Source: a virus
DNA: 64,000 bases
Reading direction: 5' to 3' (one strand)
Virus record (IMG/VR): IMGVR_UViG_3300022911_000003
Location: 1 to 64,000 of that record
Both the position numbers and the translations under genes were made by a program. This document shows positions 44,374 to 60,930 of the stretch, piece by piece (the stretch's first letter is position 1; every line of letters begins with the position of its first letter). Under the pieces are notes generated by a model. The model did no database searches and was not told the origin of the DNA. It saw nothing but the letters and a program-made list of their open reading frames with translations.

Positions 44374-44627
44374 GCCGGCCGACAGGAAAACCGGAATATA
44401 GGCTCGTCCTGGAAGCGGTACGGGACGAGATTCGCCACTTCGGCGCCACGGCAGAACTCGTGGTCGAGATGCCGCACCCCAAGATCGTTGTCACGCTTCA
44501 GGGCCTGACGCGGAAAATGGCTTTCGCCGGCAGTCCGAGGCGGGGTCAAGAAGACCAACTCCGTGCCATAAGACGTCAGGCCCGGCAGAAAATCGACGAA
44601 ATGTGGATAGAGATTACAGCGCTATGA
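44370..44627 (+). CDS. Conserved small phage protein
   Basis: 85 residues, ATGA overlap. KPEYRLVLEAVRDEIRHFGA, a strand with HPKIVVTLQG, and FAGSPRRGQEDQLRAIRRQA match a short protein common in phages. Unknown function. Last gene before the RNA locus. Confidence 0.6.
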   Translation: MSRPTGKPEYRLVLEAVRDEIRHFGATAELVVEMPHPKIVVTLQGLTRKMAFAGSPRRGQEDQLRAIRRQARQKIDEMWIEITAL

Positions 44628-44708
44628 TGCCTTGACCCGACCGCGTTGTGGCGCAATACCTATCCCGTGTCGCGCTACCCTTCCCCCCAGGTCGAGGCAC
44701 GACACATC

Positions 44709-44746
44709 GGGCCGCTGGTTCTCCGGATCAGCGGTCCTTTTCTTTT
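44709..44746 (+). terminator. Strong rho-independent terminator T1
   Basis: GGGCCGCTG (44709-44717) pairs with CAGCGGTCC (44729-44737) over 9 bp with one G-T, followed by TTTTCTTTT. It ends the rightward unit containing the genes at 40031-44627. Confidence 0.8.
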
Positions 44747-44911
44747 GCCATCCCCTGTGGATTGGGGGTAGGATTGAGACTGTGCGAAGCGGATACAGGA
44801 GTCCGTCGCAATGACCTGCTGAATGCCTCTTTTTGTGCGTCCTTTGGATCGACACGGATTTGGGGCAACTGAAGACAGCGACCGCACACTCCCCATCTAG
44901 GGGATAGGAGA

Positions 44912-44928
44912 TTGCCTTCGGGCTATGA
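44912..44928 (+). repeat. TTGCCTTCGGGCTA repeat, copy 1
   Basis: First of three near-identical elements. Reads TTGCCTTCGGGCTATGA; the centre is a GCC-TTCG-GGC mini-hairpin with a stable tetraloop. Confidence 0.75.
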
Positions 44929-45045
44929 TACCTGGCCGATCCGCAAGGGTCATAAATCCGTGACAGTTCCGCAAGGGGTCAGCGCGGTATAGAGAAGCGC
45001 CGATGGACAGCGCTCTGCCCCCGTCGAAAGGCGGGGGAGCAAGTT

Positions 45046-45059
45046 TTGCCTTCGGGCTA
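45046..45059 (+). repeat. TTGCCTTCGGGCTA repeat, copy 2
   Basis: Second copy, identical over 14 bases, then diverges. Sits between the 8-bp GAAA hairpin and the four-way junction. Confidence 0.75.
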
Positions 45060-45066
45060 GTGAGGT

Positions 45067-45126
45067 TTGACCCAACGCATATGCGACAGGCCAGCACCTG
45101 TTTCTCTGCTGGGAGAGAAGGGTCAA
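45067..45126 (+). ncRNA. Cloverleaf-like four-way junction
   Basis: TTGACCC (45067-45073) pairs with GGGTCAA (45120-45126). Between them, with only two unpaired bases after the first strand, are three adjacent hairpins: CGC-ATAT-GCG, ACAGG/CCTGT and TTCTCT/AGAGAA. The plan resembles a miniature tRNA (7-bp closing helix, 2-base linker, three arms), but no TTC loop is present. Confidence 0.55.
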
Positions 45127-45132
45127 GCATTT

Positions 45133-45149
45133 TTGCCTTCGGGCTATGA
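45133..45149 (+). repeat. TTGCCTTCGGGCTA repeat, copy 3
   Basis: Third copy; identical to copy 1 over 17 bases (TTGCCTTCGGGCTATGA). It immediately precedes the tRNA-shaped fold. Confidence 0.75.
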
Positions 45150-45150
45150 G

Positions 45151-45250
45151 ATTGAGCGGCGGCGTTGACGGAAACGCGGCAAAACTAGATGCGTGGGCTA
45201 CCCGGCGAGTGCTAGGTCCACTAGCCGGTATCCAATCCGGCCCGCTCAAT
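45151..45250 (+). ncRNA. tRNA-shaped fold with long variable arm
   Basis: ATTGAGCGG (45151-45159) pairs with CCGCTCAAT (45242-45250). As in tRNA, two bases then a D-like arm GCGT/ACGC follow, and a T-like arm GCCGG/CCGGC abuts the 3' strand of the closing helix; GCTAG/CTAGC forms a variable-arm hairpin. No proper anticodon stem or TTC loop is visible, so it is unlikely to be a working tRNA. Confidence 0.45.
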
Positions 45251-45273
45251 ACCTCCCCGCTCTGTCGGGAATG

Positions 45274-45338
45274 AAGTGGATCGACTAGCGGTAAGTCACC
45301 CGTATAGGGCTTCGTAGGTTCAAATCCTGCTCCACTCG
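45274..45338 (+). tRNA. Degenerate tRNA-like element with shortened anticodon arm
   Basis: AGTGGA/TCCACT acceptor pairs, linker TC, a perfect D arm GACT-AGCGGTA-AGTC and a canonical T arm GTAGG-TTCAAAT-CCTGC are all in place. The anticodon region is only CCC-GTATA-GGG, about 6 bases short of a normal arm, and acceptor position 1 is mismatched. It may be a decayed tRNA, a non-decoding tRNA mimic, or a processing signal at the 3' end of the structured RNA. No CCA is encoded. Confidence 0.4.
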
Positions 45339-45343
45339 TGAAT

Positions 45344-45381
45344 CGCCAGGGGCTTCGGTCTCTGGCGGTTTTCTTTTTATT
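45344..45381 (+). terminator. Strong rho-independent terminator T2
   Basis: CGCCAGGGGC (45344-45353), a TTCG tetraloop and GTCTCTGGCG (45358-45367) form a 10-bp stem with two G-T pairs, followed by TTTTCTTTTTATT. It marks the 3' end of the RNA locus. Confidence 0.85.
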
Positions 45382-45420
45382 GGTCCATGATGTGCGTCTG
45401 GCCGGGGAAGGATCAGCATC

Positions 45421-45726
45421 ATGCACTACACCATGAGTCCAATTGTCGCCGTGGTCGTCGCGTTCTCTTACGTGATCTTCACGGTCCTGACCGTGTTGCA
45501 TATCCGGGTCATTAAGCAAGACCGGGAATCCAGACTTATCTCTGCGGCCCTGATTGTAAAATGCAGTGCCTTGGCTTTTCTGTTTATGTCGTGGCTTATT
45601 CCGGACCATCCCTGGGTCAGCAGCATGAAAAATGTGCTCGGCTCCGTTGCTGCGGCCAGCCTGATCCTTCTTATCATGCTCAATTACCCAAAAATGGTCG
45701 CCGACCTGCTCGCAAAGAGGGGTTGA
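45421..45726 (+). CDS. Small membrane protein, three TM helices
   Basis: 101 residues with GAAGGA 8 bp upstream. Hydrophobic segments at about 7-26, 42-60 and 70-86. First gene after terminator T2. Function unknown; it could belong to host-surface exclusion or lysis control. Confidence 0.6.
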   Translation: MHYTMSPIVAVVVAFSYVIFTVLTVLHIRVIKQDRESRLISAALIVKCSALAFLFMSWLIPDHPWVSSMKNVLGSVAAASLILLIMLNYPKMVADLLAKRG

Positions 45727-45730
45727 GCCT

Positions 45731-45937
45731 GTGACGCATGACCTATCGTCTCAACTCACCGGGCCTCTGGGTGGGGCGCTGGCATTGGCCTTCGGTGCCG
45801 GATGTACCGCGGGTTGGGGCTTTGCCCACGTCTTCATAATCGCCGAAGCCAAAAAACGAATCAGCAAACTTGAAAGCCAGGTCGAGAGTCTTCAGGGCGA
45901 GGTAAAAAATATCCTGCGCGATCAGATCCGGCGCTGA
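45731..45937 (+). CDS. Small TM plus coiled-coil protein
   Basis: 68 residues from a GTG 4 bp after the previous stop. GGALALAFGAGCTAGWGFAH forms a membrane helix, then a coiled coil (KKRISKLESQVESLQGEVKN). Unknown. Confidence 0.55.
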   Translation: MTHDLSSQLTGPLGGALALAFGAGCTAGWGFAHVFIIAEAKKRISKLESQVESLQGEVKNILRDQIRR

Positions 45938-46004
45938 AAATCAACGTCTGTACGCCGCGTCAAAATAGCCGTATCGTCCCGGCATCAATTTTGGGAGACG
46001 GGTC

Positions 46005-46271
46005 ATGGGTAAAGCATACGGAAGGCAGAGCGCGGAAATCCTGACTGGTTCTGCGGGCTGTATCGTCGAAACCGGCACGACGGCTGTCACCGGAAACTTT
46101 TACGCCATTCAGGTCATGAACGACGCGACGTTCTCGCTGCTTACCGATACCACGGCGACTGGCGATGCCATGACAGGATTCGCGATCCCGGCCGGCATGA
46201 CGATCTACGGCAACTTTACAGCCTTCACCCTAACCTCGGGCAAGGTCCGGGCCTACACCAAGGCGACCTAG
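46005..46271 (+). CDS. Small structural-type protein
   Basis: 88 residues with GGGAG upstream. Thr/Gly-rich strands (TGNFYAIQVMNDATFSLLTD, AGMTIYGNFTAFTLTSGKVR) resemble small phage decoration or tail proteins. Context with the next gene supports a structural role. Confidence 0.55.
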   Translation: MGKAYGRQSAEILTGSAGCIVETGTTAVTGNFYAIQVMNDATFSLLTDTTATGDAMTGFAIPAGMTIYGNFTAFTLTSGKVRAYTKAT

Positions 46272-46273
46272 TA

Positions 46274-47065
46274 ATGCTGGGTCTTGGCGTAGGAATGCAG
46301 TCCGATCGAGGTCTGTCGTCGCCGTACCATACCGGCGCCAGGGCATATTTCCTTGCCATGACGACTCAACCCGACGCGGCGCGCAAGGCTCTGATCGACA
46401 CGCTGTTCAAAGGGTTGGAATCGGACGGAACGCTGCCCCTGCTCGACTGGCTCTGCCTTCTCGCATCGCACGACTCGCAGTCCGGCCTGCTGAACGCGAA
46501 ACAACCCAGCAAAACCGGAACTCTCGTCGGGACCGTCACATTTACGGCGGACAAGGGCTTCAAGGGCGACGGATCGACGGGCTACATCCTGCTTGAAAAT
46601 GCGCAGGCCGCGGGCAATCAGTCCAGCACAAACAGCGCATCCCAAGGCGTGTATTGCAACCTGTCGGTCGGCACTGGTTTTGTGGGACACATGGGTAAGC
46701 TCGCCAGTTCGGCCGGGAATATTCTTGCCCGGGCCACGGCCGGCGCCGAAACGTTCAGGCTCAACGACTCGGCCTCGGACCAGTCCCAACTCAATACCGG
46801 ATCGCACCTTGGCCACCGCTACAGCGTCAGGCCAAGCGCGGCGGTCAAGCGTGCATTTTTCAACGGGGCTCGGGTTGCAGACCTGACTACGGCCTCGACC
46901 AGCGCTTCGAACTCGCCCATGGTTCTGCTTCAGGCCGCTGGTGGCTCGTTCTCAAGCGACCAACTCGGCGCGGCTTGGTCCGGTGGCGGCATGACCGATA
47001 CCCAGGCCAATGCGGTCCATACCCGGCTCGACACCTATTTGCGGGCCATCGGCGCGGGATATTGA
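46274..47065 (+). CDS. LamG-like structural protein
   Basis: 263 residues. The region FLAMTTQPDAARKALIDTLF, WLCLLASHDSQSGLLNAKQP and FTADKGFKGDGSTGYI resembles phage tail-fibre-associated proteins. The rest is Ser/Ala/Gly-rich beta structure with a helical end (TDTQANAVHTRLDTYL). Similar end layout to the spike partner at 5538. Confidence 0.55.
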   Translation: MLGLGVGMQSDRGLSSPYHTGARAYFLAMTTQPDAARKALIDTLFKGLESDGTLPLLDWLCLLASHDSQSGLLNAKQPSKTGTLVGTVTFTADKGFKGDGSTGYILLENAQAAGNQSSTNSASQGVYCNLSVGTGFVGHMGKLASSAGNILARATAGAETFRLNDSASDQSQLNTGSHLGHRYSVRPSAAVKRAFFNGARVADLTTASTSASNSPMVLLQAAGGSFSSDQLGAAWSGGGMTDTQANAVHTRLDTYLRAIGAGY

Positions 47066-47121
47066 TTCGCATCGCAACCTTATGCCGCCTGTCCCATTTT
47101 CAGGCGCATTTGGAGGCCACC

Positions 47122-47292
47122 ATGACTGTCGCAATCCTTATCTTCGCCCTCGTCGTCCTGCTTATCGTCGGAACTGTGATCTGGGCTATTCAGACCTACT
47201 TGCCGATCGAGGCCACGTTCAAGAACCTGATCTCGTTCGTCCTGGTCATCATCGGCGTCGTGCTCGTGGCTCAGAGGGCAGGGGTGTTTTGA
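47122..47292 (+). CDS. Small membrane protein, two TM helices
   Basis: 56 residues from ATG 47122 with GGAGG upstream. Two helices (VAILIFALVVLLIVGTVIWA and FVLVIIGVVLVAQ) form nearly the whole protein. Overlaps the convergent gene by 22 bp. Confidence 0.6.
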   Translation: MTVAILIFALVVLLIVGTVIWAIQTYLPIEATFKNLISFVLVIIGVVLVAQRAGVF

Positions 47293-47942
47293 CGCTTCTC
47301 CGGCGCGAACATGTCTGGTTGCCGCCGATGGTTGTCCAGCAATGGCAGGGTTTTGGCGTATTTTGTAGCGCTTGTCCCGTCGATTGAATTAGCATTGGCC
47401 GCCGCCGCCATCTTGATTCTCCGGCCAGTATTGACCCGGCCTATGTGCAGATAGCATCCCACTGCGGCACAGAAATTGCCCCAGACCTGCATCTTCTCAA
47501 TCTTGTATTCTGTCGAACCACCAAGAAAAATCCCGACGTCAGGCCTAACTAGGTGCCGAACGTCGTCAGGTGTCATGCCGTCCTGAACGGCGATCAGGAG
47601 CAACGGTGCCCTTCCCCTTAGTCGCGGCAACCATTCGGCCAGCAGTCGCATGGTGTCGTCTCGATCGCCGACTGTATCTGGAATGACGACAAAATCGCAG
47701 TCGGCACCAAGTTGGTCGACCATCTGCTCAAAGCGCCTCTCCCGTTCGGCATCAAAGGGATAGCTTTTCCCCAAGCCATCACGAAGACCTTCCTGAAAAT
47801 CTGTCCACCGGCCGTTATCCAGGCAATACGAGAAGCCGTAGGTATTCCAGGCTCCTGTCCGAGAAACAAGAAGTCGCCAACCAGCGCTTTTCAACGCGGC
47901 CAAATTTCGTTTCGTTCCGGTGACTGAGGCGTAGGGAATCAC
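47271..47942 (-). CDS. TGT-like enzyme, possible DpdA-type 7-deazaguanine transferase
   Basis: 223 residues from a GTG overlapping the upstream stop (GTGA). DFVVIPDTVGD near 83-93, LLIAVQDGM, VGIFLGGSTEYKIEKM, LHIGRVNTGRRI near 165-176 and ANSIDGTSATKYAKTLP near 184-200 resemble the queuine/archaeosine tRNA transglycosylase superfamily as seen in phages, where DpdA-type members insert 7-deazaguanines into DNA. No deazaguanine synthesis genes are in the window, so the base would come from the host or from outside. Reading the family by eye is the main uncertainty. Confidence 0.5.
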   Translation of the reverse strand: MIPYASVTGTKRNLAALKSAGWRLLVSRTGAWNTYGFSYCLDNGRWTDFQEGLRDGLGKSYPFDAERERRFEQMVDQLGADCDFVVIPDTVGDRDDTMRLLAEWLPRLRGRAPLLLIAVQDGMTPDDVRHLVRPDVGIFLGGSTEYKIEKMQVWGNFCAAVGCYLHIGRVNTGRRIKMAAAANANSIDGTSATKYAKTLPLLDNHRRQPDMFAPEKRQNTPAL

Positions 47943-54123: not shown

Positions 54124-55110
54124 ATGTCCAAACCCTTCACCTCGCTCGATTATTCGCCGAGTTTCACGGCCGAGGGTGACATGCGCCTGCTCGCGAAGGG
54201 CAAGACATCCCCGCTTTACGTTTTCCGCAGCGTGGTCAACACCGCTGATATCGTGTCGTGGGCCAAGGCTCAGGGTTTCGCATCCGTGGTCGATCCGGCC
54301 GAGTTGCACGTGACAGTCATCTACTCCAAGTCCCCGGTCGACTGGTTCAAGTTCGGTGAGAATTGGAGCGGCGACGAAAAGGGCCAACTGACGATCAATG
54401 CCGGGGGGCCGCGCGCCGTCGAAAAACTCGGTGACAAGGGCGCAGTCGTCCTGATGTTCGCCTCGTCGCAGTTGTCGTGGCGCAATCGCTCGGCTGTAGA
54501 AGACCTTGGTGCGTCGTGGGACTATCCAGAGTATCAGCCTCATATCACGATCACCTATGCCGCGGGCGGCCTGGACCTGACTGAGGTAGAGCCCTACACC
54601 GGCAAGATAGTCCTCGGCCCTGAGATGTTCGAGGACATCGACGACAACTGGTCCGACACCGTTGTTGAAGTCAGCGATGTGCACGAGGTTTCCAAGATCC
54701 AGTGCCGCATCGCCAAGGTCGACGACTCGCTCGGCATCGTGTTCGGTTGGGCCATTGTGTCCAGCGTCGACGGCGAGCCGTACTATGACCTGAACATCGA
54801 CAAGTCCGGTGAGCGCGTCCCGGAGCACATTCCGGAGCAGGCCATGCTCAAGGCCGCCGTTCCGTTCGCCGAGGGTGAGCGACCGGCCAACGACATGCAC
54901 GACGGCCCTGATGTCGGCACCTATCCATTCATCATGCCCCTGACTGACGACATCGCCAAGGCATTCGGTATTGAGTGCGACAAGCGCGGCCTGATGATCG
55001 GGTTCAAGCCCACCGATAAGGCGCTGCTGAAGCAATTTGCCGATGGCACCAGGACTGGCTTTTCGATCGAAGGTCACCGCGTCAAAGTTACGGAGCACGC
55101 CAGTGCCTAA
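54124..55110 (+). CDS. Acb1-like (anti-CBASS) domain fused to XkdF-like head domain
   Basis: 328 residues. The first ~175 look like a 2H phosphoesterase of the Acb1 family: LYVFRSVVNTADIVSWAKAQ, LHVTVIYSKSPVDWF with His62/Thr64, and YQPHITITY with His140/Thr142. Acb1 of T4 degrades the cyclic nucleotides made by CBASS immunity. Residues about 190-325 (FGWAIVSSVDGEPYYDLNID, HIPEQAMLKAAVPF, MPLTDDIAKAFGIECDKRGL) resemble XkdF-type prohead proteins. Being built as a head-gene fusion, the enzyme might be packaged in virions; that is inference. Confidence 0.65.
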   Translation: MSKPFTSLDYSPSFTAEGDMRLLAKGKTSPLYVFRSVVNTADIVSWAKAQGFASVVDPAELHVTVIYSKSPVDWFKFGENWSGDEKGQLTINAGGPRAVEKLGDKGAVVLMFASSQLSWRNRSAVEDLGASWDYPEYQPHITITYAAGGLDLTEVEPYTGKIVLGPEMFEDIDDNWSDTVVEVSDVHEVSKIQCRIAKVDDSLGIVFGWAIVSSVDGEPYYDLNIDKSGERVPEHIPEQAMLKAAVPFAEGERPANDMHDGPDVGTYPFIMPLTDDIAKAFGIECDKRGLMIGFKPTDKALLKQFADGTRTGFSIEGHRVKVTEHASA

Positions 55111-56511: not shown

Positions 56512-57534
56512 ATGCCTATCATCCAACCCGGCCGTGCAGACGTTCACGTCAATCGTCCGCTAACCTCGATCAGCATCGCCTACATGCTGAATACCGACGA
56601 CTTTGTTGCCGGCAAGACCTTCCCGGTCGTGCCGGTCGATAAGCAGTCCGACCTGTATTATGTCGTCGATGCTGAGCGTGAAATGCTGCGCGACATTATG
56701 CAAGAGCGTGCTCCTGCGACCGAGTCCGACGGCATGACGTTCAAGTTGTCGACCAACCCGTACTTCGCCCGGAAATACTCGCTGCACCACGACATCCCGG
56801 ATGAAGTTCGTGACAATGCCGATGATCCGCTTGATATGGACCAGATGACGACTCAGGCCCTGACCCAGTCAGCCCTGATCCGTCGCGAAGTCCTGTTCAA
56901 CACGTCGTTCTTCACCGCAGGCAATCCGGGCGATACCTGGACCTTCGACGTCGACGGCGTTTCGTCGGGCGCCTCGACTGCGGCTGCATTCGATCCGACT
57001 GACAATGCGAACAACCAGAAACTTCAGTGGAACGATGCGGCCTCGACGCCGATCGAGGACATTCGTCAGGGCAAGCGCTACGTCAAGGCCCGTACCGGCC
57101 TGCGCCCCAACGTCCTGACGCTTCAGGAAACGGTCTATGACACGCTGCTGGATCACCCCGACATCGTGGGTCGCATAGACCGCGGTCAGACCAGCGGTGC
57201 CGCAATGGCAAACCGTGTGACCCTGGCCCAACTGTTCGAGGTCGACGAAGTCCTCGTCATGGGCGGCGTCAAGAACTCGGCTCAGAAGGGCGCCACTGCC
57301 TCGATCGGTTTCATCGGCGGCAAGAACGCCTTGCTGTCGTACCGCCCCCCGGCACCTGGACGCATGGTCGCTTCGGCGGGGTACTGGTTCGACTGGAAGA
57401 ACGGTCGCGCGCGTGGCATCCGCAAGTTCCGCATGGAACTGAAGGATGCAGATCGTCTGGAATATACCGATTACATGGCCCCGACGAAAATCGGCGCCGA
57501 CCTCGGTTATTTCTTTGGCGCGATTGTGGCCTAA
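56512..57534 (+). CDS. Major capsid protein
   Basis: 340 residues from ATG 56512 (GAAAGGAAA upstream). DDFVAGKTFPVVPVDKQSDL, RKYSLHHDIPDEVRDNADDP, RTGLRPNVLTLQETVYDTLL and GGKNALLSYRPPAPGRMVAS match a phage major-capsid family of the HK97 fold. Gene order (scaffold, decoration, capsid) supports it. Confidence 0.8.
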   Translation: MPIIQPGRADVHVNRPLTSISIAYMLNTDDFVAGKTFPVVPVDKQSDLYYVVDAEREMLRDIMQERAPATESDGMTFKLSTNPYFARKYSLHHDIPDEVRDNADDPLDMDQMTTQALTQSALIRREVLFNTSFFTAGNPGDTWTFDVDGVSSGASTAAAFDPTDNANNQKLQWNDAASTPIEDIRQGKRYVKARTGLRPNVLTLQETVYDTLLDHPDIVGRIDRGQTSGAAMANRVTLAQLFEVDEVLVMGGVKNSAQKGATASIGFIGGKNALLSYRPPAPGRMVASAGYWFDWKNGRARGIRKFRMELKDADRLEYTDYMAPTKIGADLGYFFGAIVA

Positions 57535-60298: not shown

Positions 60299-60670
60299 AT
60301 GACCGAACCCCTGATCGACTCGCTCGACGTAACCCTGAACGTCGGCGGCAAAGATGTCGTTCTGGCCTGTACCTTGGAGGCCGCCCGGAAACTCAGCCGT
60401 GGCGGCCTTATCAACAGGATGCACGCCATTTCCCAGCACGACCTTGAAGTCTACATCGACACCATCGCGATTGGCGCCGGGATGGAGGACAATGAACTCC
60501 TGCCCCAGGCCGTGTTCGAAACCGGGATGCGTGCTTTGGAAGTCAAGGTTTCGGAATTCTTGTACAACATCAACAATCCGAACCGGCACAAAGAAGAAGC
60601 CGCAGCCAAGGCCGCTGCTGAAGCCGCGAAGGGCAAAAAGGCCAAGACGGACCCCCAGCCGACGGCCTGA
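60299..60670 (+). CDS. Tail assembly chaperone, short form
   Basis: 123 residues from ATG 60299 (GGAG 6 bp upstream; the ATG at 60293 is too close). IDSLDVTLNVGGKDVVLACT and KLSRGGLINRMHAISQHDLE, then an Ala/Lys tail. It corresponds to gpG of lambda-like systems. A slippery C-AAA-AAG heptamer at 60634-60640 and a CCCCC run at 60652-60656 lie close to its end. Confidence 0.65.
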   Translation: MTEPLIDSLDVTLNVGGKDVVLACTLEAARKLSRGGLINRMHAISQHDLEVYIDTIAIGAGMEDNELLPQAVFETGMRALEVKVSEFLYNINNPNRHKEEAAAKAAAEAAKGKKAKTDPQPTA

Positions 60671-60930
60671 CGCCGGAGCAATACTACGACCGCCTCCTGG
60701 CTCGTGCCATGGGGCGGTTGCATTATACGCAGGCTCAGGCCCTTAAGTGTCACGTCGTCGCGCTGGAACAGGCGCTTGAATTCGATCAGGACCGGGACGT
60801 AGCGCTTCACGAGATCATCTGGTATGCCAATGGCGGTACGAAACCGCTGTATCCGAACCGAAAGGCGTCCGTGACGAAAAAACTTTCGGCCCCAGACGCC
60901 AAATCGGCGCTCCGGAACAACATACGATGA
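60622..60930 (+). CDS. Frameshift extension of the tail chaperone
   Basis: In the -1 frame, a reading frame overlaps the end of the short chaperone and continues to 60930 with no own ribosome site before its first good Met (60709). It reads DGLTPEQYYDRLLARAMGRL and LEQALEFDQDRDVALHEIIW, a helical region typical of gpT-type extensions. A -1 slip would fuse it to the short form. It lies directly before the tape-measure gene, where this arrangement is standard in long-tailed phages. Confidence 0.6.
   Translation, partial: SREGQKGQDGPPADGLTPEQYYDRLLARAMGRLHYTQAQALKCHVVALEQALEFDQDRDVALHEIIWYANGGTKPLYPNRKASVTKKLSAPDAKSALRNNIR

Follow-up and report, generated by a model that had tools for sequence, protein, structure and literature searches.

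Here, we report a 65-nucleotide (nt) tRNA-derived domain that lacks a usable anticodon, located at the 3' end of a gene-free locus in a phage of probable alphaproteobacterial siphovirus type. The window analyzed is the whole stretch of 64,000 nt, bases 1 to 64000 of the 70,956-bp IMG/VR virus record IMGVR_UViG_3300022911_000003. The tRNA-derived 3' domain is demonstrable and unusual, the evidence for the remaining structure is modest, and for function there is none. The locus is a real, well-bounded non-coding one that is probably transcribed and probably an RNA gene; coding scores, terminators, tetraloop enrichment, and tRNA homology together argue for a discrete non-coding RNA that carries a tRNA-like module at its 3' end.

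Phage and locus boundaries

The phage is tailed. Its 1,412-amino-acid (aa) tail protein shared 41 to 43% identity with GTA-like tail proteins from phages of Rhodobacter, Roseobacter, and Dinoroseobacter, its major head protein was 57 to 59% identical to proteins of several records, including one isolate of 62,668 bp, and its terminase and DpdA-like transglycosylase were closest to those of Rhizobium and Erythrobacter phages. Since these proteins are nearest to those of phages of alphaproteobacteria, the host is probably alphaproteobacterial as well. A 223-aa protein (47271-47942, minus strand) was 46% identical to proteins of Erythrobacter phages and, at a greater distance, related to the DpdA-like tRNA-guanine transglycosylases found in actinophages, a relationship suggestive of 7-deazaguanine modification of the phage DNA. 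A 328-aa protein (54124-55110, plus strand) had its best phage-family match in phrog_755, annotated as RNA ligase, and other segments of it matched methyltransferase and portal families; because the gene sits among head genes, the ligase label probably stems from proteins that are fused or misnamed. No reverse transcriptase or Cas partner for an RNA was found in the Pfam and PADLOC census of the phage. Outside the locus, the strongest local folding in the genome was at 60640-60759 (z = −3.9) and 56560-56679 (z = −3.7), in gaps between structural genes or where such genes begin.

The locus is flanked by a small plus-strand gene cluster (ending at 44627) and a plus-strand cassette (starting at 45421). 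Every open reading frame (ORF) in 44640-45420 scored negative with codon usage trained on the phage's own genes, and an antisense ORF of 219 aa (44950-45609) was without coding character, with a negative codon-usage score for its remaining part. The gene-free stretch is about 790 bases long in all, and the locus between its terminators about 600. Both the lack of genes and the two strong terminators, one upstream and one closing the locus, agreed with the original prediction. The features were as follows.

44709-44746, plus strand: upstream intrinsic terminator with a 13-bp stem (44709-44737) and a T-rich tail, closing the preceding gene cluster
44745-44774, plus strand: sigma-70-like promoter candidate (TTGCCA, spacing of 18, TAGGAT), by consensus match only
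44890-44904, plus strand: 5-bp hairpin UCCCC/GGGGA at the 5' side of the originally proposed interval (p 0.97)
44914-44923, plus strand: UUCG hairpin GCC-UUCG-GGC, repeat copy 1, which an alternative pairing of GGCUA may displace
44928-44990, plus strand: module A, two GCAA-capped hairpins inside AUACC/GGUAU, with an ambiguous junction fold
45018-45037, plus strand: module B, 8-bp hairpin with a GAAA loop (p 0.98)
45048-45057, plus strand: UUCG tetraloop hairpin, repeat copy 2 (repeat search and tetraloop count)
45065-45128, plus strand: module C, four-way junction with a 9-bp closing helix (helix probabilities, 0.68 to 0.99)
45135-45144, plus strand: UUCG tetraloop hairpin, repeat copy 3 (repeat search and tetraloop count)
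45151-45250, plus strand: module D, cloverleaf-shaped, with a 9-bp closing helix and arms at 45162-45177, 45193-45221, and 45224-45241
45274-45338, plus strand: module E, 65-nt tRNA-derived domain (descriptor, alignments, and covariance model)
45274-45280/45331-45337, plus strand: module E acceptor, 6 of 7 pairs, first pair A.C
45283-45297, plus strand: module E D-arm, stem 4 of 4 pairs, loop A14-GG-A21
45299-45309, plus strand: module E small hairpin CCC-GUAUA-GGG, 3 bp, 11 nt, between the D and T arms
45314-45330, plus strand: module E T-arm, stem 5 of 5 pairs, loop TTCAAAT
45340-45378, plus strand: 14-bp intrinsic terminator with a UUCG loop (hairpin 45340-45371) and a T-run (fold and terminator scan)
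45421-45726, plus strand: gene for a small hydrophobic protein, 101 aa, holin-like by eye, first of the downstream cassette

The promoter candidate lies immediately after the first terminator and was the only plus-strand candidate in the region, in a scan that used the sigma-70 consensus alone. Transcription would start near 44781 and end at 45371-45378, giving a predicted RNA of about 600 nt.

The tRNA-derived 3' domain

The tRNA-like 3' end of the original prediction was recovered at 45274-45338, beyond chance, by a descriptor, by alignments, and by a covariance model. The cloverleaf descriptor (5-bp T-stem with a TTCRANY loop, acceptor with at least 6 of 7 pairs, 4-bp D-stem with A14, GG, and A21) had a single match in the 71-kb record, at 45274, and none in 60 simulated genomes. 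Global alignment of module E with 53 tRNAs gave a best score of 59.5, for tRNA-Leu(CAA) of Halogranum virus HGTV-1; the best other genomic window scored 32.5, and shuffles of module E had a best-of-all score of 10.9 on average (standard deviation, 4.5; maximum, 30.5). A covariance model built from the 65 nt of module E alone and run over 887 kb of loci ranked genuine tRNAs first, namely tRNA-Gln of Salmonella phage SPLA5a (E = 8e-8), followed by tRNA-Leu of HGTV-1 (E = 7e-7) and tRNA-Asn of a Clostridia contig (E = 4e-6). On these comparisons, module E is truly tRNA-derived.

Module E aligned end to end with phage class II tRNAs (HGTV-1 tRNA-Leu CAA; SPLA5a tRNA-Ser), sharing the acceptor, D-arm, T-arm, and possibly the variable arm. 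It differs from them in having no 17-nt anticodon arm (neither a 7-nt anticodon loop nor a 5-bp arm), no encoded CCA, and the A.C first pair, and in being embedded at the 3' end of what is predicted to be a longer structured transcript. With both MAFFT and a pairwise aligner (phage tRNA-Leu and tRNA-Ser), the gap fell on the anticodon arm, so the domain cannot read codons. The small hairpin took the place of the class II variable arm in the tRNA-Leu and tRNA-Ser alignments and of a shortened anticodon stem in the covariance-model match to tRNA-Gln; with both placements, decoding is impossible. Because it has no 7-nt anticodon loop, module E was called neither by ARAGORN nor by the Rfam tRNA model.

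In humans, mascRNA forms the tRNA-like 3' element of a long RNA; RNase P and RNase Z recognize it via its elbow, yet it does not become aminoacylated (PMC11693755). Like module E, mascRNA and menRNA (the 3' elements of MALAT1 and MEN-beta; PMC11693755) are 3' tRNA-like domains with an elbow and no functional anticodon; unlike it, they are eukaryotic, with unrelated sequence, whereas in the phage the processing is only predicted and a terminator stands directly after module E. The SpF41 small RNA of Streptococcus (RF02435) also has a tRNA-like fold followed by a terminator and was the best sub-threshold Rfam match to module E plus terminator, at chance level (20.8 bits versus a gathering score of 52; E = 1.3).

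Upstream modules and search for relatives

Stable UUCG and GNRA tetraloop hairpins were about 20-fold over the genome rate in the locus, with four UUCG loops on stems of at least 3 bp (0.19 per 600 nt genome-wide) and three GNRA loops on stems of at least 5 bp (0.13 expected). The GCAA, GAAA, and UUCG loops of the original prediction were present. The 17-mer TTGCCTTCGGGCTATGA, which forms a C(UUCG)G hairpin, occurred in two exact copies and one with three changes at its end, all within the locus, and its 14-base core was found nowhere else in the record.

Of the predicted folds, the four-way junction was upheld as a well-defined module C. Its neighboring hexaloops at 45091-45096 (CCAGCA) and 45108-45113 (GCTGGG) can form a predicted kiss of five Watson-Crick pairs, CCAGC/GCUGG. 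Helix probabilities were lower in module A than in the GAAA hairpin, module C, and the main helices of module D. The last of these were strong (0.93 to 0.99), but the alignment score of 45151-45250 against tRNAs (31.5) was within the genomic background (next window, 29.5), and module D was rejected as a second tRNA for lack of significant tRNA similarity. A possible closing helix between the 5' and 3' regions (44765-44789/45310-45333) was strong in the predicted fold and was rejected because it did not stand out from shuffles or from controls elsewhere in the genome (p about 0.1).

Exceptional folding of the locus was not confirmed. The originally proposed interval had a folding z of −3.1, and the body minus the 3' terminator had a z of about −2.0; 446-nt windows on the locus ranked 5th and 6th of 159 in the genome, and tiled 120-nt windows had ordinary folding energy. 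The type of hairpin is a better argument for a structured RNA than folding energy, which is a weak one.

Rfam gave no match at gathering level over the whole window, and a search of the locus against its families at E ≤ 10, part of the check proposed with the original prediction, matched none above chance. The alphaproteobacterial tmRNA model (RF01849) did not match. With blastn, tRNA 3' ends alone were matched among 50,697 phages and 72,556 plasmids. DNA patterns made from the UUCG repeat and the kissing loops gave, in viral contigs, no match, one coding coincidence, or 69 chance matches, depending on the pattern. The repeat pattern matched one AT-rich Clostridia locus in bacterial genomes, which has its own tandem repeat and was rejected as unrelated. 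That locus (positions 5930-6105 of L129, a Clostridia metagenome-assembled contig from horse feces) carries tandem repeats of a TTAGCCTTCGGGCTAA hairpin where the sequence is AT-rich and poor in genes, ahead of a tRNA-Asn gene, and looks like another structured RNA unrelated to that of the phage.

Covariance models of modules C and D found no credible relative of the RNA in 22 related phage records; one match (E = 0.0016) was antisense inside a structural gene of ZS04 and was rejected, and another (E = 0.29) was taken as chance. The 101-aa protein downstream of the locus had no detectable relative, and scans with it and with the protein encoded at 46274-47065 gave no close relatives. As a separate observation, tRNA-like matches (model R3) were found on the minus strand at 155-226, 813-884, and 1996-2071 of Erythrobacter phage XM05, within a first 4 kb that carries no annotation in the record and probably holds a tRNA cluster. 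Since no relative was found, no conservation or covariation defines an RNA class. The new large class of phage RNA that had been proposed is thus not shown, with no relative in Rfam, phages, plasmids, viral contigs, genomes, or related phages, and the locus stands as a single orphan.

Candidate explanations and significance

We tentatively favor a phage non-coding RNA gene with a 3' tRNA mimic that would be processed by host tRNA enzymes; of the roles originally suggested (scaffold, tRNA mimic, or virion RNA), the data support tRNA mimicry alone. The roughly 600-nt RNA would form the stable modules A/B, C, and D, with UUCG hairpins as spacers and a likely loop-loop kiss in C. Module E keeps the tRNA parts read by RNase P and 3'-end enzymes (the acceptor and the D/T-loop elbow with GG and TTCAA) and has lost the part read by the ribosome. 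Host RNase P may cut before 45274, separating a structured body (about 490 nt) from the 65-nt tRNA mimic, which could then bind tRNA enzymes or tRNA-cutting host defenses and stay out of translation. Phage tRNAs counter tRNA-cutting defenses (PMC11555353); an anticodon-less tRNA acting as a decoy is speculation. Against this model stand the modest folding of the body (z about −2), the want of a homologue, the failure of standard tRNA finders to call module E, and a predicted competing fold, in which transcription starting before 44765 would let the T-arm of module E pair with 44765-44789 instead, although this pairing is not significant (p about 0.1). A further step, with the locus as the first member of a phage RNA type not yet recognized, in which several structured domains are joined to an anticodon-less tRNA and tRNA mimicry serves the RNA's own 3' processing or occupies host tRNA enzymes or tRNA-cutting nucleases, is rather doubtful.

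Somewhat unlikely, and the strongest of the alternatives, is a decayed tRNA gene in which a deletion took most of the anticodon arm and the surrounding hairpins are incidental, unselected intergenic DNA. Module E is clearly tRNA-derived, single tRNAs occur in related phages (tRNA-Ser in L003 and L038; tRNA-Met in ZS04), the locus is conserved in no relative among those examined, and its folding energy is ordinary. Decay, however, sits poorly with the remaining helices of module E, which are intact (acceptor 6/7, D 4/4, T 5/5) and retain the tertiary bases of the D- and T-loops, with hairpins far commoner than elsewhere in the genome (one of them repeated three times), and with about 790 gene-free bases, which is long for a compact phage.

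The locus could instead be a leader RNA, starting near 44781 and usually stopping at 45378, with antitermination into the membrane-protein genes at 45421-47292, by analogy with lambda pR'-tR'; we consider this unlikely. Besides small hydrophobic proteins, the cassette there (plus strand, directly after the RNA terminator) encodes a 263-aa member of family phrog_26223. The T-run lies just 42 bp from the ORF at 45421, with no plus-strand promoter found between them in the sigma-70 scan, and lambdoid phages are an established case in which Q allows transcription to pass a terminator ahead of the lysis genes (PMC6266700). The lambda late leader likewise has a promoter, a non-coding stretch, and a terminator ahead of small membrane-protein genes; the phage locus is much longer and bears a tRNA-derived domain, for which a simple leader has no need. 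The Pfam census of 65 proteins (part of the gene set) contained no Q-like antiterminator or antitermination family, the terminator helix (p 0.99) had no competing antiterminator fold, and the promoter scan knows the sigma-70 consensus alone.

An ornate RNA like GOLLD or ROOL, in which kissing loops and GNRA contacts drive assembly into a multimer or cage, is highly improbable. GOLLD (RF02032) and ROOL (RF03087) occur close to tRNA islands, and their assembly relies on kissing loops and A-minor contacts (PMC12286853); the phage locus shares with them a comparable size, a phage origin, an extensive non-coding structure, an association with tRNA, a hexaloop kissing pair, and GNRA loops. It is nonetheless shorter, its tRNA part is anticodon-less, and it gave no sequence or structure match to either; the GOLLD model gave no match at E ≤ 10, the ROOL model none in a run without a positive control and none in the gathering-level Rfam search, and the kiss is equally possible within one molecule. 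The attP core of a tRNA-integrating phage, with module E as a copied tRNA 3' end for site-specific integration, would fit the best-conserved stretch of the module being its tRNA 3' part, but it can be practically dismissed because no integrase domain was found (tyrosine-integrase domain Phage_integrase PF00589 in the whole record, serine integrase in the 65-protein Pfam census), and the match to tRNAs also takes in the 5' acceptor and the D-arm, needless for such a core.

For large phage RNAs, GOLLD and ROOL among them, function is still an open question. If the phage locus is only a relic, it illustrates how easily attractive hairpins in a solitary orphan can mislead. At 65 nt, module E is small enough for direct work with RNase P, the CCA-adding enzyme, and tRNA-targeting nucleases, and a phage tRNA that has shed its decoding part and retained its elbow and acceptor would separate translational from non-translational roles of phage tRNAs.
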